This document shows, in pieces, positions 13,292-41,308 of a stretch of DNA of 64,000 bases. The notes beneath the pieces are model-generated. The model saw nothing but the letters and a program-made list of their open reading frames with translations, was not told where the DNA came from and ran no database searches. The position numbers and the translations under genes are program-made. The DNA comes from Pseudanabaena cinerea FACHB-1277 (GTDB taxonomy: Bacteria > Cyanobacteriota > Cyanobacteriia > Pseudanabaenales > Pseudanabaenaceae), in NCBI RefSeq assembly GCF_014696345.1, contig NZ_JACJPY010000003.1:1-64000 (forward strand), in the 5' to 3' direction. How positions within the stretch are numbered: position 1 is the first letter of the stretch; each line of letters begins with the position of its first letter.

Positions 13292-16138
13292 TTACACCAA
13301 CTGGGCAAGGGTTTGTAATAATTCGTTTTCTTTGAATGGCTTAGCAAAATATGCAGAAGCACCTAACCGCATTGCAAGATCACGATGTTTTGTGCCGCTA
13401 CGGGATGTCAGCATGATTGTGGGAATTTTTTGACAATGCTCGTCACTACGCGACTGAACTAGGAAACCAAAACCATCTAAACGCGGCATCTCAATGTCGC
13501 AAATGACCGCCTTAACCGATGCGGCGGTTGGCGATTGTGAAAGTTTGCGGAGCCGTTCGATCGCTTCGTGACCATCCTTAGCCTGCTCAACCCGATATCC
13601 AGCTTTTTCTAGGGTCATCGCCAAGAATCGCCGCACATTGATTGAGTCATCAACTACTAAGATCGTCGATCGCCGATCGCTCTTGTTTGGCAATAGAGAA
13701 AGAGTATTGGGACGTTCTGGTTTGATATCAGCGATCGCCCAATCTAGCAGGTTGTCAATATCGATAATGGGTACGAGTTTACCACCGCCCAAAATCGCAC
13801 AACTGCCAAAGCCAACGGGCATAGCGATCGGACTTTGTACGCCGCGAATTGTCACCTCCTGTTCGCCCCAATAGCAATCTACCTGCAAGCCAAAGGGAAT
13901 ATTATTACGAGCAACAATTAAGATTAATGGCTCATCGATGATCGGGAGGTTTTCGGTTTCCGTTTGCATTTGGGGACGGCTAAATTGTAAGCGATCGCCT
14001 AATTTGACGATCGGTACGGAATAACCTTCCCAATCGATTACATCTTGACCTGCGGCGGTATAGACCGAAGTATTGCGTACTAATAGAATCTCCTCAACGG
14101 TACTAGTCAATAGCGCCATTTGCAAACTATTACTTTCAAACAACAGAATGCGGGCGATGGACAGGGATACAGGCACGGTCAGAATAAAACTAGAACCTTT
14201 ACCCATTTCCGTCTCAATGCGAATGCTGCCACCGATCATATCGAGGTTAGAGCGCACCACATCCATACCCACACCCCGCCCCGACAGTGCCGTAACCTGT
14301 TCTGCCGTACTAAAACCCGCCTCAAAAATTAATTCTAAAAGCTCTGCTTGTGTAGAATTAGCGAGATCAGCTTCACTAATGCCCATTTGCAAGGCGCGAT
14401 CGCGTAGTTTATCCAGATTAATACCGCGCCCATCATCACTAACAGTAATTACAGTCTGGTTGCCGCGATAGCCTGCGGCTATTTCAATACGCCCCTTGGG
14501 AGATTTACCTGCGGCAAGCCTTTCTGTTGGTGTTTCCAAGCCATGATCGAAGGCATTACGAATTAGATGCAATAAAGGATCTTCTAATTTCTCCAAAACC
14601 GATCGCTCCACGAGGGTAGAGCTGCCACGCACCGATAGCTCCACCTGCTTGCCATGGGTCAAGGACAAGTCGCGCAACAAACGGGGAAAACGATCTAAAA
14701 CTTCACTGAGCATCCGCATCCGCGTCTGTTCGATCGCCGTTTGCATTTGCCGAGAAGTGCGCCCCAGTTCCCGTTCCGTTGCCTCCGTATCGGTCAATGC
14801 TGTTCCCAAATCACTATAAACCTCTTGCAACTGCACCACACTATCCATAATTTCCCGTGACAGCACATGGAGTTCGCTATAGCGATCCATCTCTAAAAGG
14901 TCAAAGCGGTTGGCATAGGGCAGAAAGGTTTCTGGAGTTTGATTAATTTGATTAATTTGATTAATTGGATTAAATATAGGCGTATTGCTGATAATTGGAC
15001 TGGAAGTAATGGACTCAGAAGATGTTAATACCCGATCGTAAACCTCCCGCAGTTGAGCGTTAGACTGCTCAAGATGTTGTATTCTCGTACTCAATAACTG
15101 GACTAAATCGCGCATCCTTTGTAGATGGATGCGTAGACCACTGCGTTCGGCGTTCATCTCCCCAAACCGATCGCTCAGGATTTCTAATTGACGTAATGGC
15201 ACACGAGCGGTGGGATTGATGAGAGAATTTGCTTCATCTTTAGCACTAGCATTGGCAACAGCATTAGCAACAGGAGTTGGATTGCCAACAGTAAGATCTT
15301 CTTCCATTACGGCTAAATCTAGACTGCCTTGAGGCAAACTATGATCAGCCAAGGTGGGAGCAGTTATGTCAAAATGCTCAGGCAATGCCTGAAACTGACT
15401 GACTAGCACTAAAGCCTGCGATCGCCGCCATATTTCTAAAGCCGCAGTCGTAACCGCATGGAGATCGGCATCATCGGATGCCAATGCTTGGCTAATCTCT
15501 TGACAAAGATTGGTAAAGGCTGGCAACTCCAACATCTCGCCCAAACAGCCAAACTCCTGACTGGTGATCTCAAACTCCTCACGCAAAACTTGGGAATATG
15601 GATCAGCCAAGACATCGGTTAAGCGATTGAGACAGGCATCCACCTCAGTGGAAAACATGAGAACCCGCATATCCTGCCCCGCCTCTTCTGATAGCAGGCT
15701 AGCTTCATGGTGCGCTGACAGCTCGCCGAGGATATCGCGCAACTGTCGAAAAGGTTTGCTAACTTCCTGCGCGATCCATGCTGGATCAGGGGACTGGCGC
15801 TGTTTGTATATACTAGCCACCTTACCGATGCCATCGAGAGATTCCAGAAATAACGCCTCCATTTCTGAGGTCAGGATTACTTGACTGTCTGCTTGCAAAA
15901 TTTTAAAAAAATCTTCCAACTGGTGAGAGAATTCGCTCAGGGCATCAAATCCCATCATCGCTGATCCACCCTTCATCGAGTGAGCCGCCCGTAAGATCTT
16001 GTTTGCTGATGCGCGTTGTAAACCGCGATCGCTTAAACCCAATACTTCCGTTTCAATGTCCGCTAAAAAATCCCGCATTTCATCGAGAAATAATAACCGA
16101 ACTTCCCACTCGCGATCGCTTAATGTGCTGATTGGCAT
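13292..16138 (-). CDS. CheA-type hybrid histidine kinase of a Pil/Pix chemosensory system
   Basis: The 948-residue kinase receives signals from the methyl-accepting protein encoded just upstream. Domains in order are Hpt with the phospho-histidine in AAHSMKGGSA (about His53), a variable linker, a P3/P4 dimer and ATPase region (HLIRNAFDHGLE, VSDDGRGINL, GVGMDVV), a CheW-like domain, and a C-terminal receiver (LVVDDSINVRRFL, VICDIEMPRLDGF, KPF). The receiver follows the PilL/PixL layout. A run of Asn-Gln-Ile repeats lies in the linker near 14940-14965. I start it at ATG 16138 (MPISTL), with GGAGG about 12 bases upstream; the longer frame to 16198 would overlap the upstream gene by 56 bases. It is the last gene of the six-gene operon. 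Confidence 0.94.
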   Translation of the reverse strand: MPISTLSDREWEVRLLFLDEMRDFLADIETEVLGLSDRGLQRASANKILRAAHSMKGGSAMMGFDALSEFSHQLEDFFKILQADSQVILTSEMEALFLESLDGIGKVASIYKQRQSPDPAWIAQEVSKPFRQLRDILGELSAHHEASLLSEEAGQDMRVLMFSTEVDACLNRLTDVLADPYSQVLREEFEITSQEFGCLGEMLELPAFTNLCQEISQALASDDADLHAVTTAALEIWRRSQALVLVSQFQALPEHFDITAPTLADHSLPQGSLDLAVMEEDLTVGNPTPVANAVANASAKDEANSLINPTARVPLRQLEILSDRFGEMNAERSGLRIHLQRMRDLVQLLSTRIQHLEQSNAQLREVYDRVLTSSESITSSPIISNTPIFNPINQINQINQTPETFLPYANRFDLLEMDRYSELHVLSREIMDSVVQLQEVYSDLGTALTDTEATERELGRTSRQMQTAIEQTRMRMLSEVLDRFPRLLRDLSLTHGKQVELSVRGSSTLVERSVLEKLEDPLLHLIRNAFDHGLETPTERLAAGKSPKGRIEIAAGYRGNQTVITVSDDGRGINLDKLRDRALQMGISEADLANSTQAELLELIFEAGFSTAEQVTALSGRGVGMDVVRSNLDMIGGSIRIETEMGKGSSFILTVPVSLSIARILLFESNSLQMALLTSTVEEILLVRNTSVYTAAGQDVIDWEGYSVPIVKLGDRLQFSRPQMQTETENLPIIDEPLILIVARNNIPFGLQVDCYWGEQEVTIRGVQSPIAMPVGFGSCAILGGGKLVPIIDIDNLLDWAIADIKPERPNTLSLLPNKSDRRSTILVVDDSINVRRFLAMTLEKAGYRVEQAKDGHEAIERLRKLSQSPTAASVKAVICDIEMPRLDGFGFLVQSRSDEHCQKIPTIMLTSRSGTKHRDLAMRLGASAYFAKPFKENELLQTLAQLV

Positions 16139-16142
16139 GGAC

Positions 16143-18983
16143 TTAAGCGGCCTCCACCTTAAATGTCTCCACCGAAGCCTGCAATTTACTGGCAACATTG
16201 GCGGTCTCTTGGAGCGCTGTCGCCACTTCGCGGGAGGTTAGCGAAGACTTTTGCGACTGACTGGAGAGACTTTCCATAACCTGTTTTACCGATTGCGAAG
16301 TTTGCACCTGCGAAACTGTAGCCTGAGAAATGCCCTGAAATAGTTCATTTACCTTCCGTGCCACCTCCACAATTTGATTTAAACTCCTACGAGCATCTTC
16401 CACCTTGTTTGTACCTTCCACCACCTGCAAAGTACTAGCTTCCATGGATTCCACCACCTCACTGGTTTCCTGTTGAATACTTTCCACAATGCGGGCAATT
16501 TCCTTGGTTGCCGTCGCCGACTGTGCCGCCAATGCACCAACTTCCTGGGCAACCACCGCAAAGCCACGTCCCTCTTCACCTGCACGCGCCGCCTCAATAC
16601 TGGCATTTACCGCCAACATATTTGTCTTGAGCGCAATCTGGTCAATTAAAACCACAACCTTAGAAATTTGTTGCGAAGCCTCACCAAGCCGTTTTACCTT
16701 CTTAGCAGTTTCCGACACAGTTTGCCGTAACTGCAAAATACTAGAAGCTGATTGCTCGATCGCTTGACTACCTGTTTCCGCCGTCACCGCCGCTTGGTTA
16801 GAAGCATCCGCCGCCTGTTTTGCATTCACCGATACCTGCTGGATCGAGTCGGTCATCGCTTGCACCGACTGCAATGCTTCGTCAAGCTGTTGCGCCTGCA
16901 AAGTGGCTTCATCCGCCAGACTGCGAATTGATTCATTGTTAGTATTTACCGATGAGCTTACTTGCAAAGTCGCCTGTTTTACCTGCGTGACAACCTCCCG
17001 CAAACTTTCTACGATCGCATTAAAGAAGTCAGCAACAATGCCAATTTCACCCGCCGAGATTTGAGCGCGAACGGTCAAATCCCCTGATACTGCACCTTCA
17101 ACATCCGACAATAATGTAATTAACTCCTTTTGCAAGGCTACACTGCGTTGACGCTCCTGCTCTGCCACATAAATCTGTTGCTCCACAGTGGCTAAACCAC
17201 CAAGCGCTCGCCCAATTTCCTCGGCATAGCTTTGCATTAGCTTGATCTCTGGTTCCTGCCATTGGCGATTTTCAAAGCAGGCATGGGCAATTAACAGACT
17301 ATCTAACTCACCAGCCCGTAACACTGGCACAACCAGATTGGCTTTGATCTGGAGCTTTTTCATCAAGTCTAGGTGAGCAGGTGAGAATCCTGCATCGAAT
17401 ACATCCCTAGTTGCCACTAACCGACCCTGCTTATAAGCTTCAAGAATTTCTTGCGGAATGCAGGGATCGTTTAAGCCCGCGTTTTTGGCACTAGGTAAAT
17501 TTACTAGCCCCGACTCAGCAACTATAATCCCTTGACTACTGATGGATGAACCTGAAACAAAGCGATACAGCACCAGTCGATCGCAGTTTAGTTCTTGGCG
17601 AATTTCGGACAAGAATCGGCTCAAAGGCTCGTCCAGTTCTGCAATATTTCGCGATCGCGATACTTGCGCCAAACTTTGCGATCGCCTTGCTTGGGTTTCT
17701 TGCAAAGCCAAGAAGGTCTGCAACTGTCCAGCCATTGCGTTAATGTTATCCCCCAATTGCGCCAACTCATCCTGCCCTGTAACCTCTAGGCGTGTATCAA
17801 GATTCCCCTTACCTAGCTCAAACACCGCCGCCGTTGCATCAATAACTGGCTTAGTTGCCCTCTGAGCGATCGCGATCGCCAACAGCCCTGCCAATATAGT
17901 GATGCCACCAGTGGCTAAGACGAAAATCAACAGCAATTGTTGCTGCGGTTTTAGTGCGATATCCGTATCAGCTGCAATCAAAGTACTCCATTTTAAATCT
18001 GGCAATCCTTCGATTTTGGGCAATGGAGAATAGCCAACAAACTGCTCAGTACTATCAACCAAGTCAATCGATCTAGCAGAAACACTCTCTCCTTTGTCAA
18101 CCAGAGACCCTAAGCCTGGGAAATCCACCTTAAGTTCACGCCCTACCTGATCCTTTTCTAAAGCCACGAAAAACTTACCATCCGACTCAACTAAGTGATA
18201 CTCTTCACCATCAGCACTAAAGTCTTTAATCAAATCTTCTAAAACCGAAGCTTGTATTCGAGTACGGATAACTGCGGTAGTTTTGCCAGTGGTAATATCC
18301 TTGACTGGTGCAGCCACAAAGATGCTGACCTTTTTAGTTACAACTGAAGGCTCAGGTTGACTGATGAAAGGTTTATTGGTGCTAAGTACCGTCTGAAAAT
18401 AGGGACGCTTAGAAATATTCGTTGGTGGTGGCTCTGTGCTTGCATCTACAATTAAATTCCCATCAGGACGATATACCGCGATACTGTCATAAACCCCATA
18501 ACTTTTTATGTAATTTTCTAAAATCTCTTTCTGCTCCGCCAAGTTCAAAGATGCTTGCACCTTCGGATTAGTCAAAGAAGGCAATTGCGAAAGCACAATA
18601 ATGTCGGCATAACGTTCACGCATGAAGTATGCCACCCGATAAGCTGCCCCTTCAGCGCGTAAAGCCTTTGCTTTTTGAGTTGAGAGAGCAACGTTTTCAC
18701 CTACATACACATAGGTGAATCCCCCTAAAACTAACAACGGAATTGTAATTGCTGCTACTGAAATAATTGCCGTCTTTGTCCGCAAGCCTAGCGCCTGCCA
18801 CCAAGCTCTTATGGGATTATGCCCAGACTTTGGCGATGTAGGCACAAAAGGCAAGGATGCAGTAATGGGCTTTGCATGGATATCATTGCTATCAAGATTC
18901 CCCAAGTCGTTGCTAATAGGTTTTGTACCATTACCATTCATTACTTCAGGGCTGTCAAGGTGAGAGCGCGAGTCAAGAGCCAT
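16143..18983 (-). CDS. Methyl-accepting chemotaxis protein, PilJ/PixJ-like, with a cyanobacteriochrome-like GAF domain
   Basis: A membrane receptor of about 946 residues. TM1 lies at about 70-95 ([19 protein letters not shown]). It is followed by a periplasmic Cache-type sensor, TM2 ([19 protein letters not shown]), HAMP, GAF, a second HAMP-like segment and the MA signalling hairpin ([18 protein letters not shown]). The GAF domain is of the cyanobacteriochrome type ([19 protein letters not shown]). Its canonical bilin Cys is Ala (about 536), while the upstream Cys survives in DPCI (about 508), 28 residues earlier. It probably does not form a normal photocycle. The frame opens at 18998; GGAG nine bases before the ATG at 18983 favours the later start. 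Four bases separate its stop from the CheA gene. Confidence 0.93.
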
Positions 18984-19046
18984 CTTAGTAAACTCCATTT
19001 TTTAATAAAAATAAAAAAAACAAAAAAGGCAAGAGGAGAATGAAAC

Positions 19047-19559
19047 TTATATACTGAAACCATGACTAACGATCGCATCTGTGTTTAGTAAATACAGGCG
19101 CGGCATACCTTTGTCAGGGCGAATCAGCCAACCGCTCAAAAACTTCCTAGCTTCGTTGGGAATATTTGTCTCTGATAAATCCTGTGGGGACAAGATCCTA
19201 TTTTCAGCAAACCTCATCACTTGCCCAATGCGATAGACAGCCAAACCAATAAATGACGCACCTATTTGTAAGATCGCAACATGGGTTTCGAGAGCGGTGG
19301 GATCAATAGCTGTAAATCCTAGCAACTGGGGCAAATCTAGTACCCAAAAAACATTACTGCGATGTTCAATTAAACCGATAAGACAAGGATGCGTATTGGG
19401 CATCTGGGTAAATCTCTCAGAAGAGACAATGATTGTCTCCTGAATAGAGTCTAACGGCACTGCCATGTCTAAATTCTGACCGAGTTGCAATGTTAAATAA
19501 GTCAAGCCCAAGCTTGTCCTTGGTTGGTCTTCCTGTAGCTCAATTAATAGTTTGCTCAT
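19047..19559 (-). CDS. CheW-like coupling protein of the Pil/Pix operon
   Basis: A 170-residue CheW-domain scaffold that would link the receptor to the CheA kinase. Core marks are PLDSIQETIIVSSERFTQMP, CLIGLIEHRSNVFWVLDLPQLLGF, and the later IGLAVYRIGQVMRF. It starts at ATG 19559 (MSKLLIELQ), just past the stop of the preceding receiver gene at 19561; a start at 19571 would overlap that gene. The receptor gene follows 63 bases later. The order receiver, CheW, receptor, CheA is that of cyanobacterial pil/pix clusters. Confidence 0.9.
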   Translation of the reverse strand: MSKLLIELQEDQPRTSLGLTYLTLQLGQNLDMAVPLDSIQETIIVSSERFTQMPNTHPCLIGLIEHRSNVFWVLDLPQLLGFTAIDPTALETHVAILQIGASFIGLAVYRIGQVMRFAENRILSPQDLSETNIPNEARKFLSGWLIRPDKGMPRLYLLNTDAIVSHGFSI

Positions 19560-19560
19560 C

Positions 19561-19923
19561 CTATATCCCAACCTTTAGCGATCGCAGAGCTTGAAGAATT
19601 TCATCTTTGGTAAATGGCTTAGTGATATAGACATCTATACCTTGCTTCATTCCCCAAAAACGATCTAATTCTTGATCCTTAGAAGTACAAGCAATTACAG
19701 GTACTTTGCTAGAAAGCCTTTTGATCGCCCGACAAAGCTCTAAACCACTCATCCCTGGCATAACTAAGTCAGTAATTATAACATCAGGTTTCAACCTTTC
19801 AAACTTTGCTAAACCGTCGGTGCCATCACTAGCAGTAATGATATTGTATTCTCCTTGTCTAATATACTCGCAAATTAGCGCGAGTTCAGAAGGGTTATCC
19901 TCCACAACCAAGACAGTGATCAA
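19561..19923 (-). CDS. CheY-like response regulator (PilH/PixH type), TTG start
   Basis: A single receiver domain of 120 residues, with VLVVEDNPSE (acidic pocket), PDVIITDLVMPGMSG (phospho-acceptor Asp), CTSKDQ and YITKPFTKDE (conserved Lys). An ATG frame begins at 19959. However, AGGAGG seven bases before a TTG at 19923 marks that codon as the likelier start. It gives a length equal to the paralogue at 19983-20342 (119 residues) and the expected MITVLVVED N-terminus. It would take phosphate from the CheA kinase and control pilus motors. Confidence 0.92.
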   Translation of the reverse strand: MITVLVVEDNPSELALICEYIRQGEYNIITASDGTDGLAKFERLKPDVIITDLVMPGMSGLELCRAIKRLSSKVPVIACTSKDQELDRFWGMKQGIDVYITKPFTKDEILQALRSLKVGI

Positions 19924-19982
19924 AGTCGTACCTCCTAAATATTTCTCACTAAACAACATTTCTCACTAAACAACTTCCCCTA

Positions 19983-20342
19983 CTAGATCACAGAACGTAC
20001 AGCGTGTAAAATATCCTCACGACTGAAAGGTTTACTGATATAAAAATCGATGCCTTGTTTCATGCCCCAAAGCTTATCTAGTGCTTGATTCTTAGAAGTG
20101 CAAGCAACAATTGGCACATCCTTAGTCTCAGCATTTTTCTTCAGATTGCGGCACAACTCCAGACCATTCATGTCTGACATAACCAGATCATTCATCACCA
20201 CATCAGGTCTCTTGCCCTCAATTTTTTTGAGTTCCTCTTGACCATTGTTAGCCCTGATCACATTGTATTCACTGTCAACCAAGTAGCTAACAATTAAGTC
20301 CTTCTCGGTAACTGTATCTTCAACCACAATTATTGTTGTCAT
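19983..20342 (-). CDS. CheY-like response regulator (PilH/PixH type), second copy
   Basis: A 119-residue single receiver with IIVVEDTVTEKD, PDVVMNDLVMSDMNG (phospho-acceptor Asp retained, the usual Pro replaced by Ser), CTSKNQ and YISKPFSRED. It is clearly a tandem duplicate of the 19561-19923 protein: WGMKQGID and SKPF are shared. It lies second in the operon, after the PatA-type gene, with a gap of 59 bases to the next receiver gene. Two PilH-like proteins in one operon may act as signal output and phosphate sink. Confidence 0.92.
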   Translation of the reverse strand: MTTIIVVEDTVTEKDLIVSYLVDSEYNVIRANNGQEELKKIEGKRPDVVMNDLVMSDMNGLELCRNLKKNAETKDVPIVACTSKNQALDKLWGMKQGIDFYISKPFSREDILHAVRSVI

Positions 20343-20398: not shown

Positions 20399-21688
20399 TC
20401 ATATCAAATGACGCATCATCATTTTTAATAAATCTGATTGGACAAAAGGTTTAGTGAGATAGTCAGTTGCTCCTGCTAGTTTTGCCCTAGCTCGATCAAT
20501 TAAGCCTTTATTCCCCGTAACCATTACAATCGGAATATCTTTGAGACTTGAAGATTTACGAATTAGAGAACATAATTGATAACCGTCAACGTTAGGCATT
20601 CCAATGTCTAACAAAATCAAATCAGGACGAATTGAAGTTATTTTCATCAAGGCTTTCATCGAATCTTGAATTAAAGTTACTTGAAAATCTTCACTACCTA
20701 AATAGCTCCTAATAATGCTGAGCATCGACTCACTATCATCAATGCACACCACTTTCCAAGTCTTGGGGGAACCGTGGGCTAAAACCTGAGATATAGAAGA
20801 AATGCCATCGTTTGCTGTCTCTTCAAATTCTTCCAAGGTTTCTGATAACTGGTTAATGTTATACTCCTCTTCATCAGGACTGAGGCGATATGTGGGGGGT
20901 AATAGATCAAAGGGGGGCAGAGGATCTCTTAGTAAAATTGAGCCATCTTTGATCATTGGGCTAAGTTGCTTGGCGAGCATGAGAGGATCTTTACCTAACA
21001 GCGCTCCTAACTGATAAAAATTAAACCCCCTAAGAATCCTGCCTAGTCTCTGAACTGTGTCCATAGACATCCGTCGCGCTGCTGAGGTTTGGCTGACAAG
21101 ATATAAACATTGATGGGGGGAGCAGATGGTCGGCCCGAGGCTATACCAAGCTTGGAGCCGTTTTTCGACAACATCTAGGATTTGGCTGGTCGTTAGTTTG
21201 CAGTATATATTTCGTAGTAAATGGGGGTAATACTTCTCTATAAATTGGCCATCCTCTAGGCAAAGAAATGACTCAATTACCTCCTGTGCCATTCTGGCAA
21301 CTAATTTGCTTGCAAGAGGCTTGGGCAAATAATTTTCATTGACTAGCCACAAAAGTGCCAAATATTCGGTGCATAAAATTTCGCTAGTAACTTTGTATTT
21401 GGCATTGTCGGGATTGGGGTCGTCAAAAATAAGCCGCAATTGCGATCGCAGCTTGTCATTTAGTGCTGGCACTTCACGACTGAGACCACGCAAATGTCGC
21501 TCTAAACGTTCAAAGCTGTCGAGGGAATGGGAGGCATAGGCTAATTTGCCATGATGAACATAAAAAGCCCAGCGAATACTGTTACGGATAACATAAACGC
21601 AGCCATCCTCTCTAAGCTCCAAACCCTTAAGGACACTTTTGGCGGTTTTTATTTGATCATCTACCATATCTAGAGTCGCAAATACCAT
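20399..21688 (-). CDS. PatA-type response regulator (PilG/PixG-like)
   Basis: A 429-residue protein with an N-terminal PatA domain (DUF4388-like, FYVHHGKLAYASHSL). A middle helical region precedes a C-terminal receiver (VVCIDDSESMLSII, PDLILLDIGMPNVDG, VTGNKG, YLTKPF) with all phosphorylation residues present. PatA/PilG/PixG proteins head cyanobacterial pilus chemosensory operons and control the localisation or activity of the motility machinery. This one is first in the six-gene minus-strand operon ending with CheA at 13292. The promoter must lie in the long gap upstream. Confidence 0.92.
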   Translation of the reverse strand: MVFATLDMVDDQIKTAKSVLKGLELREDGCVYVIRNSIRWAFYVHHGKLAYASHSLDSFERLERHLRGLSREVPALNDKLRSQLRLIFDDPNPDNAKYKVTSEILCTEYLALLWLVNENYLPKPLASKLVARMAQEVIESFLCLEDGQFIEKYYPHLLRNIYCKLTTSQILDVVEKRLQAWYSLGPTICSPHQCLYLVSQTSAARRMSMDTVQRLGRILRGFNFYQLGALLGKDPLMLAKQLSPMIKDGSILLRDPLPPFDLLPPTYRLSPDEEEYNINQLSETLEEFEETANDGISSISQVLAHGSPKTWKVVCIDDSESMLSIIRSYLGSEDFQVTLIQDSMKALMKITSIRPDLILLDIGMPNVDGYQLCSLIRKSSSLKDIPIVMVTGNKGLIDRARAKLAGATDYLTKPFVQSDLLKMMMRHLI

Positions 21689-38281: not shown

Positions 38282-41200
38282 ATGAAACAACCTATTCAAT
38301 CCCCTAAGCACAGAGTTGCTAAGCAGCTATTGTTTGGATTTGGTCTATCCCTAGCGGTGATAGGATTTTCTGCTTTGTCTATTATTTATTCATCCCTCAA
38401 ATTTAATTTAGATGAGCAGGTTCAACAACGCGCCAAAACAATTACTCAGGGGCTTGAATTTGCTAGCGAAGGGCTGGTTGAGGACGAAGAAATTTTTCTT
38501 CTAGAACGCCTTGTCCAAAACTATGCTACTTTGCCAGCAGTGGTGGATATATCAATAGTTGATCCTAGGGGTAAAGTAATAGCCCACAGTCATAGGCTAG
38601 ATGTAACATTGACAAATATGACCTATGCAGATATTCACCCACAGCTTATTCCTTATTTGCAGAGAGCATCCCGCAATGGCGTAGAAATAAATACCAATGC
38701 CAATTTAAATGGAAAATCTGTAATTGTTCAATTTTTGCCTTTTAGTAGCACTGTATTTAATAAATTAGGGAAAGAGAGATCTCCAGAGACATCATCATCT
38801 AATAATCGAGGTGTAGTGATCGCGGTTATGGATCTCCAAAAGATGGAAAAAGAAGCGTTAAAAAATGCTTTATGGGCGATCTTGGCAATGTCGTTTAGTG
38901 GCATAACAATTTTGATGTTTATGGGCTGGTTAATCCGCAGGTTAGTACTCAGTCCTATAGCCAAGATTCAATTGGCGATCGCCGATGATGAAAAGCAAGA
39001 AAGATTCGCTTTACCTGTTTTACCTGACAATGAGATTGGTTTTCTAGGGGCAACATTGGCTTCAGTCTTGGAGGAGGTAAAAAATTATAAACAGATGGAG
39101 TTAGATATAGCTGAGAGCAAATATATCGAGATCGCCAAACACTATGAATTAGCAACTAATGCTGCCAAAGTATGGATATGGGATTGGGATGCTCAAACAG
39201 GTATATTTGTTTTGGAGTGCGGGATCAAAGAATGGCTTGGCCATCAGGGTTGTCAAGGGTCAAGTCAATTTGAAGATTGGATTTTGAATCTTCATATAGA
39301 CGATCGCGAACTTTTTAGAAATACATTTCAGAGACATCTAGCAGGTGATACTTTAGAGTTTTCTTGTGAACATCGTCTTTTTAATGCTGAAGGGAAGCCC
39401 CATTGGTTTTTATCTCGCGGGGAGAGGGTTTTAGATAACAACAATAAAGTAGTCAGAGCGATCGGTACGATTACTGACATTCAAGAGGTTAAACAGGCAG
39501 AGAAATTGATTCGTAAGCAAGCAAAAAGAGAGTTTGTAATCCGAGAAATCACACAAAATATCAGAAAAACTCTCGATCTCAGAACTATTTTTCAGACTAC
39601 TGTTGAGGAGATTAGAAACTTTTTGAATGCGGATCGTGTTGGTATTTTTGAGTTCGATCCTGACTCTAACTTTGATGATGGCGAATTTGTTGCCGAATCA
39701 GTCTTGCCTAAATTTGAATCTGCAATGAAAATCAAAATCCATGATCATTGTTTTGGCGAACAATATGGCAAATTCTATGAGAAAGGCAAAATACAGTCTG
39801 TCAGCGATATTCACAATGCGGGATTAACCCCATGCCATACTCAAATCTTGTCGCAATTTCAAGTAAGAGCAAATTTGGTTGTTCCTTTACTTAAGTCAGA
39901 TAAATTATGGGGTCTGCTGTGCATTCATCAATGTGACAGTCCTCGCGAGTGGGAAACCATTGAAATCGATTTCGTCAAACAAATTGCCAACCAATTGGCG
40001 ATCTCTGTTCAACAAGCGGATCTTTATCAGCAAATTCAAGATGATTTATTGATCCGCAAGCAAACCGAAGCACAATTATTGAGAGTCAATGAAGAACTCT
40101 TGAAAGCCACTAAGCTCAAGGATGAATTTCTTGCCAACATGAGTCACGAACTCCGCACTCCGCTCAATTCTATACTGGGGCTGTCAGAGGTTTTGAAGGA
40201 GCAGATCTTGGGAGAACTAAATGAAAAGCAATTAAATGCGATCAGCACTGTCGAATCAAGTGGTACGCATCTCCTATCTTTGATTAATGATATTCTCGAT
40301 CTCTCAAAGATTTCATCGGGGATGATGGAACTCCATGTCGAAGTAGTCTCAGTTGAAAATGTCTGCAATTCCAGTTTGATCTTTATCAAACAACAAGCAT
40401 TTCAAAAAAGAATACAAGTTAGCAGTAATATTCCCAAGAACATAAACAATATCAAGGTTGAAGAGCGGCGAATCAGACAGGTATTAATTAATTTGCTCAC
40501 CAATGCTGTCAAATTTACTCCTAGTGAGGGGCGTGTCAGTCTTTTGGTTGCCTGCGGTCAGGGTGATTTATGGCAAGGCGAAGCCGTGATCCCGCAACAA
40601 ATCAGATCAATGAATTTGCCGATGATTGTGTTTCAAGTGGCGGATACTGGCATTGGTATTACTGCCGAAGATTTGCAACGTCTCTTCCAGCCCTTTATTC
40701 AGGTGAGCAGTAATCTCAACCGTCAATATGAAGGGACTGGTTTGGGTCTAGCTCTGGTCAAGCAAATTGTTGAACTGCATGGTGGTCAGGTAATGGCTGA
40801 GAGCGAATTTGGGCGGGGGAGTCGCTTTACCGTGGCGCTGCCCTATGAGGTGGTGCAGTCTGGTGGGGCGATCGCGCCTAAACTAGATGCAAATACTGCA
40901 TCGCCAGTCAAGGTAAATAATGATGACGCGATCGCGCCGCTTATTCTGATTGCTGAAGACAACGAAGCAAATATTCAAACCTTCACATCCTATCTGACCG
41001 CAACCAATTATCGTATCGTTGTCGCCAAAGATGGCAAAGAAGCGGTTGCCAAGACTAAAGAGCTATCGCCAGATATCATCATTATGGACATTCAAATGCC
41101 GAATATGGATGGTTTAGAGGCAATTGGTTTAATTCGTGCTGATGCTGAGACTGCGCCAATTCCGATAATTGCCATGACGGCTCTAGCTATGGAAGGCGAT

Positions 41201-41308
41201 CGCGAAAGATGTCTAAAGGCGGGTGCTAGTGATTATCTAACCAAGCCTGTTAAGTTGAGGCTGCTAGCTGATACAATTCGACTGCTTCTAGCAAAGCGAG
41301 CCAGCTAA
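38282..41308 (+). CDS. Hybrid histidine kinase with a DXCF-type cyanobacteriochrome GAF domain
   Basis: A 1008-residue membrane kinase. TM1 is at about 17-37, then a periplasmic region to about 200, TM2 (ALWAILAMSFSGITILMFMG) and HAMP. Next come PAS (about 285-400), GAF (about 415-580), HisKA with SHELRTPLNS, HATPase (NLLTNAVKFT, DTGIGI, GTGLGLALV) and a receiver (LIAEDNEANI, IIMDIQMPNMDG, KPVK). The GAF domain has the bilin cysteine in CH (Cys518-His519, in LTPCHTQILSQFQVRANL) and a second Cys in DHCF (Asp488-Cys490), the DXCF motif. The 28-residue spacing fits dual-cysteine blue/green photoreceptors. All kinase and receiver residues are intact. It follows the binding-protein gene and probably integrates light with a periplasmic signal. 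Confidence 0.92.
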   Translation: MKQPIQSPKHRVAKQLLFGFGLSLAVIGFSALSIIYSSLKFNLDEQVQQRAKTITQGLEFASEGLVEDEEIFLLERLVQNYATLPAVVDISIVDPRGKVIAHSHRLDVTLTNMTYADIHPQLIPYLQRASRNGVEINTNANLNGKSVIVQFLPFSSTVFNKLGKERSPETSSSNNRGVVIAVMDLQKMEKEALKNALWAILAMSFSGITILMFMGWLIRRLVLSPIAKIQLAIADDEKQERFALPVLPDNEIGFLGATLASVLEEVKNYKQMELDIAESKYIEIAKHYELATNAAKVWIWDWDAQTGIFVLECGIKEWLGHQGCQGSSQFEDWILNLHIDDRELFRNTFQRHLAGDTLEFSCEHRLFNAEGKPHWFLSRGERVLDNNNKVVRAIGTITDIQEVKQAEKLIRKQAKREFVIREITQNIRKTLDLRTIFQTTVEEIRNFLNADRVGIFEFDPDSNFDDGEFVAESVLPKFESAMKIKIHDHCFGEQYGKFYEKGKIQSVSDIHNAGLTPCHTQILSQFQVRANLVVPLLKSDKLWGLLCIHQCDSPREWETIEIDFVKQIANQLAISVQQADLYQQIQDDLLIRKQTEAQLLRVNEELLKATKLKDEFLANMSHELRTPLNSILGLSEVLKEQILGELNEKQLNAISTVESSGTHLLSLINDILDLSKISSGMMELHVEVVSVENVCNSSLIFIKQQAFQKRIQVSSNIPKNINNIKVEERRIRQVLINLLTNAVKFTPSEGRVSLLVACGQGDLWQGEAVIPQQIRSMNLPMIVFQVADTGIGITAEDLQRLFQPFIQVSSNLNRQYEGTGLGLALVKQIVELHGGQVMAESEFGRGSRFTVALPYEVVQSGGAIAPKLDANTASPVKVNNDDAIAPLILIAEDNEANIQTFTSYLTATNYRIVVAKDGKEAVAKTKELSPDIIIMDIQMPNMDGLEAIGLIRADAETAPIPIIAMTALAMEGDRERCLKAGASDYLTKPVKLRLLADTIRLLLAKRAS

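Follow-up and report, generated by a model that had tools for sequence, protein, structure and literature searches.

A Pseudanabaena chemoreceptor with a one-cysteine GAF domain of the DXCIP cyanobacteriochrome type

The 64,000-nucleotide stretch of the Pseudanabaena cinerea FACHB-1277 genome analysed here (the window) encodes a chemoreceptor whose GAF domain looks like that of a cyanobacteriochrome and has alanine at the site of the canonical bilin-binding cysteine. This raises the question of whether the receptor has become light-blind or binds a bilin through its remaining cysteine only, two outcomes that a preliminary description of the locus had set side by side. On every sequence feature tested, the receptor GAF belongs to the DXCIP lineage of cyanobacteriochromes. 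Absence of the canonical cysteine is normal in that lineage, so the domain, judged by analogy with its published members, probably functions in light sensing, as a rather ordinary member of its kind. The receptor and the comparison domain are laid out as follows, with residue numbering throughout referring to the 951-residue form of the receptor.

16143..18998, minus strand: chemoreceptor gene, dCache-HAMP-GAF-MCP, 951 amino acids from the first ATG (open reading frame and Pfam)
18159..18656, minus strand: dCache_1 periplasmic sensing domain, residues 115-280 (Pfam; weak PctA similarity)
17718..17870, minus strand: HAMP domain, residues 377-427 (Pfam)
17202..17636, minus strand: DXCIP cyanobacteriochrome-type GAF, residues 455-599 (Pfam, PDB matches, tree, fold match)
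17454..17468, minus strand: D-P-C-I-P motif, residues 511-515, with Cys513 the presumed sole bilin-attachment cysteine (alignment; function from the available text of PMC5578081)
17373..17378, minus strand: Ala541-His542 at the canonical Cys-His site (alignments)
16263..16781, minus strand: MCP signalling domain (MCPsignal), residues 740-912 (Pfam)
39575..40006, plus strand: comparison domain, a hybrid histidine kinase GAF of the DXCF type with both cysteines intact (Pfam, alignment)

The receptor protein matches the Pfam GAF family at E 1.1e-12, and its dCache domain resembles PctA at E 5e-6, a similarity too weak to settle the dCache ligand. The preliminary description had started the gene at 18983, which is the next in-frame ATG (Met6). 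This start is plausible because two congeneric reading frames with a GAF domain (L005 and L007) align to the window receptor only from about residue 6.

Within the GAF domain, Cys513 (codon TGC, 17460-17462) and Ala541 (codon GCT, 17376-17378) are 28 residues apart. Among solved structures, TePixJ chains match it best in sequence (3vv4_A, E 9.7e-27). The alignment with TePixJ is gap-free between both sites, placing DPCF on DPCI, ECH on PAH and the canonical TePixJ cysteine on Ala541, and the pattern of cysteine and alanine in the receptor is therefore not a matter of chance. In the comparison kinase (38282-41308), Cys490 in DHCF and Cys518 in PCH are likewise 28 residues apart. These alignments bear out three earlier observations at the locus, namely that alanine replaces the canonical cysteine before histidine, that the cysteine of DPCI stands exactly 28 residues earlier, and that the intact DXCF domain has the same spacing. 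The full motif is D-P-C-I-P, and this form, beyond the DPCI of the preliminary description, is by sequence the one that names the lineage, DXCIP.

An AlphaFold model of the GAF domain (pLDDT 89.1, pTM 0.86, from a 63-sequence alignment) has as its first Foldseek matches 6oap_B (E 2.0e-15), a sensor kinase in its green-absorbing state, and TePixJ 3vv4_B (E 2.4e-15). With alanine at the canonical site and isoleucine after the second cysteine, the domain falls outside the two-Cys DXCF type, which carries both the canonical and the DXCF cysteine. It combines the features of the DXCIP lineage, that is, a cyanobacteriochrome-type fold, no canonical cysteine before histidine, and Asp-Xaa-Cys-Ile-Pro; this placement is by motif and clade, with the biochemically characterised DXCIP domains compared by description. 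The lineage lacks the canonical cysteine according to the available text of PMC6628166, and the accessible part of PMC5578081 describes a bilin attached by the D-x-C-I-P cysteine only, with absorption of green light in the dark state and a photoproduct shifted slightly to the blue. The receptor GAF shares with these domains the missing canonical cysteine, the cysteine within D-x-C-I-P and the fold; it differs in that a lone GAF sits behind a periplasmic dCache domain and in that pigment and colour are inferred. The one-Cys DXCIP domain is thus already a known kind, of which the window receptor is a further member.

A survey of 388 genomes of the class, searched with the receptor GAF and with up to nine candidates scored per genome, found a GAF match at E <= 1e-26 in at least 148. 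The surveyed loci comprised 59 stretches around better matches among those listed and 21 around congeneric receptors, plus loci found earlier. An iterated profile aligned 158 GAF domains, a sample drawn by similarity to the window GAF and hence enriched for its kind. The canonical site holds cysteine in 74 of them, glutamate in 30, aspartate in 26, alanine in 18, lysine in 4, glutamine in 2, histidine, tyrosine and asparagine in one each, and a gap in one. Seventy-three are DXCI domains without the canonical cysteine (a group in which the presence of the second cysteine and isoleucine in 100% is partly a matter of definition), 72 have both cysteines, two have the canonical cysteine alone, and 11 show neither pattern.

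In a tree of 157 of these domains (one short row dropped, motif columns left out), built by a quick method from few columns and with the root not known, all 73 DXCI domains, the receptor's included, form one 74-row clade with a decayed domain from the congener G006 (SH-aLRT 99). The receptor GAF groups with the other DXCI domains, apart from the two-Cys DXCF domains. Because 72 of the 83 rows outside the clade are two-Cys domains, the canonical cysteine appears most simply to have been lost once, in the ancestor of the 74-row clade. A private loss in the window gene is rejected, since the whole clade lacks this cysteine; what the preliminary description had presented as a cysteine lost by this receptor is a lineage-wide trait. 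Fushimi et al. 2016 (Biochemistry 55:6981) is the primary paper on the DXCIP lineage, and its abstract reportedly places the lineage next to the DXCF domains of phototaxis sensors, in agreement with the tree.

A second sample came from scanning named genome contigs with sequence patterns and covers the best 80 of 178 relatives in 78 loci, four of them labelled Pseudanabaena. The patterns did not include the DXCIP motif, though one required glutamate, aspartate or alanine at the canonical site. Among the 180 GAF domains of these loci, 71 have the canonical cysteine and 109 do not (two of these by a gap); the second cysteine is kept in 96 of the 109 and is followed by isoleucine in 95 of those. 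The combination of second cysteine and isoleucine without the canonical cysteine occurs in 77 of the 78 loci, and the exception (L246) has two-Cys domains only.

Leaving out the window, 121 distinct proteins carry a GAF with the second cysteine only, and their output is an MCP domain in 114, unassigned in seven and a histidine kinase in none. Fifty-two of the 121 are MCPs in which one such GAF precedes a two-Cys GAF. Another 35 resemble the window receptor, being MCPs in which the profile detects a single GAF, of this kind. A CheA gene lies within the fetched stretch for 72 of the 114 MCPs, and none of CheA, CheW or PatA for 36, counts in which stretches often end at contig ends and differently cut copies from the two samples are possibly counted twice.

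The window receptor sits in a Pix/tax1-like gene set in the order PatA-CheY-CheY-CheW-MCP-CheA, with the following operon partners assigned by domain search and cluster comparison.

20399..21688, minus strand: DUF4388 + REC response regulator
19983..20342, minus strand: CheY-like single receiver (Response_reg)
19561..19959, minus strand: CheY-like single receiver (Response_reg)
19047..19571, minus strand: CheW-like protein
13292..16198, minus strand: CheA-type hybrid kinase (Hpt-HATPase-CheW-REC)

The regulator at 20399..21688 is presumably PatA/PixG-like. The listed start of CheA, 16198, gives a 56-base overlap with the receptor gene; CheA homologues align from residue 20-28, mostly about 21, which corresponds to an ATG at 16138, so the start may lie there and the overlap disappear.

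PilJ is the chemoreceptor of type IV pilus motility, and a PilJ identity was considered for the window receptor and set aside, as another chemoreceptor of the genome fits better. This likely PilJ, on contig C158, has 777 amino acids from its ATG and no Pfam GAF; the window receptor is probably a different gene, with the PilJ label of C158 itself inferred. A search of the genome for the MCP family finds eight places, seven of them above the family cut-off, the window receptor included. A Pfam scan found no GAF in the other six above the cut-off, and the contig of the eighth, below it, has no match among the GAF hits of the genome. The genome also encodes bilin reductases, namely two PcyA-like proteins and single PebA-like and PebB-like ones, all four of which exceed their NCBIfam cut-offs, plus one fragment.

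The gene set around the window receptor is similar to tax1 as the available text of PMC5812497 describes it. The same partial source describes PtxD of Nostoc punctiforme, like the window receptor an MCP with cyanobacteriochrome GAFs in a phototaxis Che cluster; PtxD has seven GAFs, at least six of them binding bilin, whereas the window receptor has one, of a different lineage. TePixJ and SyPixJ1 are phototaxis receptors of similar build, combining a chemoreceptor with a cyanobacteriochrome GAF, but TePixJ has both cysteines and the window receptor only that of the DXC motif, together with a dCache domain.

Sequence, motif and clade, together with the predicted fold, the gene cluster and the bilin-reductase genes of the same genome, make it likely that this is a DXCIP GAF whose bilin is bound at Cys513. 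By analogy with published family members, a phycocyanobilin-type bilin would be held covalently at this residue, with no part for the absent canonical cysteine, and its dark state would probably absorb green light. A light-induced change in the GAF would pass to the MCP tip and on to CheA. The targets of CheA phosphorylation would be the CheY-like proteins and the PatA-like regulator, and these would govern type IV pilus motility. A further input, chemical in nature, would reach the receptor through its periplasmic dCache domain.

The receptor varies within the genus. Among 26 congeneric genomes, eight have an intact DPCIP GAF (one of them, G015, with its N-terminus cut by a contig end), one has a degraded GAF (G006), 12 are without a GAF, as judged from how their search matches fall, two have another N-terminus, and three give no match at a threshold of E 1e-100. 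In all 11 GAF-less receptors examined (G291 excluded), the GAF is cleanly absent at one shared junction and all six cluster genes are retained. The G006 receptor (L083 8146-10485, minus strand) has C513S, I514V and H542D in its GAF, in window numbering, and its N-terminus is also different. In trees, both its MCP end and its CheA fall as sister to their counterparts in the GAF-less G010.

The MCP-end tree (23 rows) needs five GAF changes and the CheA tree (21 rows) four, with many forks unresolved, G006 scored as having a GAF and the two other-N-terminus receptors as lacking one. Two are enough in a tree built from the receptor regions outside the GAF, one of them accounted for by the GAF-bearing G020 nested among GAF-less receptors; its 19 rows omit G015, G006, G017 and G013, whose N-termini are cut or different. 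In this tree, grouping the 11 GAF-less receptors together is rejected (p-AU 0.004). Repeated independent loss of the GAF in the genus was set aside in view of the single junction in 11 of 11 receptors and the two changes outside the GAF, and the simplest account of these sequences would be one GAF loss with later recombination. The GAF is present in the same cluster of G256, from another genus of the family, so its presence may be ancestral, as judged from that one genome.

Within the DXCI clade, G002 and G006 have GAFs that form a branch apart from the GAFs of their congeners. In G002 (L081 7050-9899), the GAF groups with that of G006 and the rest of the receptor with G012, which suggests that the G002 GAF was replaced by another of the DXCIP lineage. 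Four congeners have a second, shorter MCP gene after the receptor (L080 9238-11175, L081 9899-11854, L082 6705-8639, L079 1682-3577), and Pfam scans of two of these genes (L080 and L081) found no GAF. The pair of receptor and second MCP presumably recalls pixJ1-pixJ2.

A light-blind relic, meaning a folded GAF that connects HAMP to MCP as a linker or helix-coupling element and has ceased to bind bilin, would be in keeping with the absent canonical cysteine, with the clean loss of the GAF in 11 congeners and its decay in G006, and with the replacement of propionate contacts known from TePixJ. The available text of PMC6955287 names D492, H498, W499, C494, C522, H523, Q526 and N535 of TePixJ, of which D492, C494, H523 and N535 are kept in the window GAF and H498, W499, C522 and Q526 replaced; the B-ring propionate contacts H498 and W499, together with Q526, become Glu, Ile and Leu. 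These replacements do not single out the window GAF, since position 498 is variable among DXCI and two-Cys domains alike, and since the entire DXCI lineage departs from the two-Cys domains at 499 and 526. Against a relic stands the conservation found with a reference of 64 DXCI domains, from which the window and its receptor group were left out: the window GAF has no deviation at the 21 columns conserved in 95% or more, Cys513 included. At the 28 columns conserved in 90% or more it has two, the mean of the reference rows being 0.9, and its alanine is a minority state at the canonical site, where the reference has Glu in 29, Asp in 23 and Ala in 7. The retention of the second cysteine in most domains without the canonical one (96 of 109 in the 78 loci) and the bilin binding of the published lineage, as given in the accessible part of PMC5578081, also argue against a relic, which is unlikely for this receptor. 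Of the two outcomes first considered, attachment through the remaining cysteine is thus upheld by the published motif and lineage and light-blindness fits less well; on sequence grounds, a light-blind reading would suit the GAF of G006 better.

Two further readings concern how a ligand would be held. The pocket might take up a bilin non-covalently, or another ligand, with Cys513 conserved for another reason; lineage-specific positions such as Ile514 and Leu545 could be read this way, but attachment through the DXCIP cysteine is reported for relatives in the available text of PMC5578081, and the idea is quite improbable. It would be more surprising still if another cysteine stood in for the canonical one, for example Cys574 in the LLIAHAC strand. 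This residue is invariant in the 73-domain DXCI group, yet the same cysteine occurs in 97% of the 72 two-Cys domains and is alanine in two solved TePixJ sequences (4fof/4glq and 2m7u/2m7v), so it is no lineage-specific substitute.

With the GAF read as a probable one-Cys light sensor, a tempting misreading is corrected, as a domain that has D-x-C-I-P cannot be taken for a dead photoreceptor on the grounds that the canonical cysteine is missing. Congeners that lack the DXCIP cysteine too, or that lack the GAF in a conserved cluster, form a better test set for dead photoreceptors. A tentative proposal, held with somewhat less than even confidence, is that one Pseudanabaena cluster presents the same chemoreceptor in natural light-equipped and light-less versions. 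Should the GAF prove photoactive, Pseudanabaena would offer a ready comparison set in which a dual receptor for chemicals and green light has its light input switched off while the pathway is kept.

Several loci show other combinations. GAF domains without either cysteine occur in L184 (7059-10472), L196 (3606-6965), L182 (3780-7073), L192 (3-3071) and L202 (3699-7073), and these, by their sequences, may be truly bilin-free. Nine MCPs combine one second-Cys-only GAF with a GAF lacking both cysteines. Two records titled Candidatus Gracilibacteria and Parcubacteria (L207 and L233) contain DXCIP-type GAF genes typical of cyanobacteria and are likely mis-binned contigs. The G084 locus, fetched as a possible PixJ1 comparison, encodes an MCP of 966 residues that has two GAFs of the two-Cys type.
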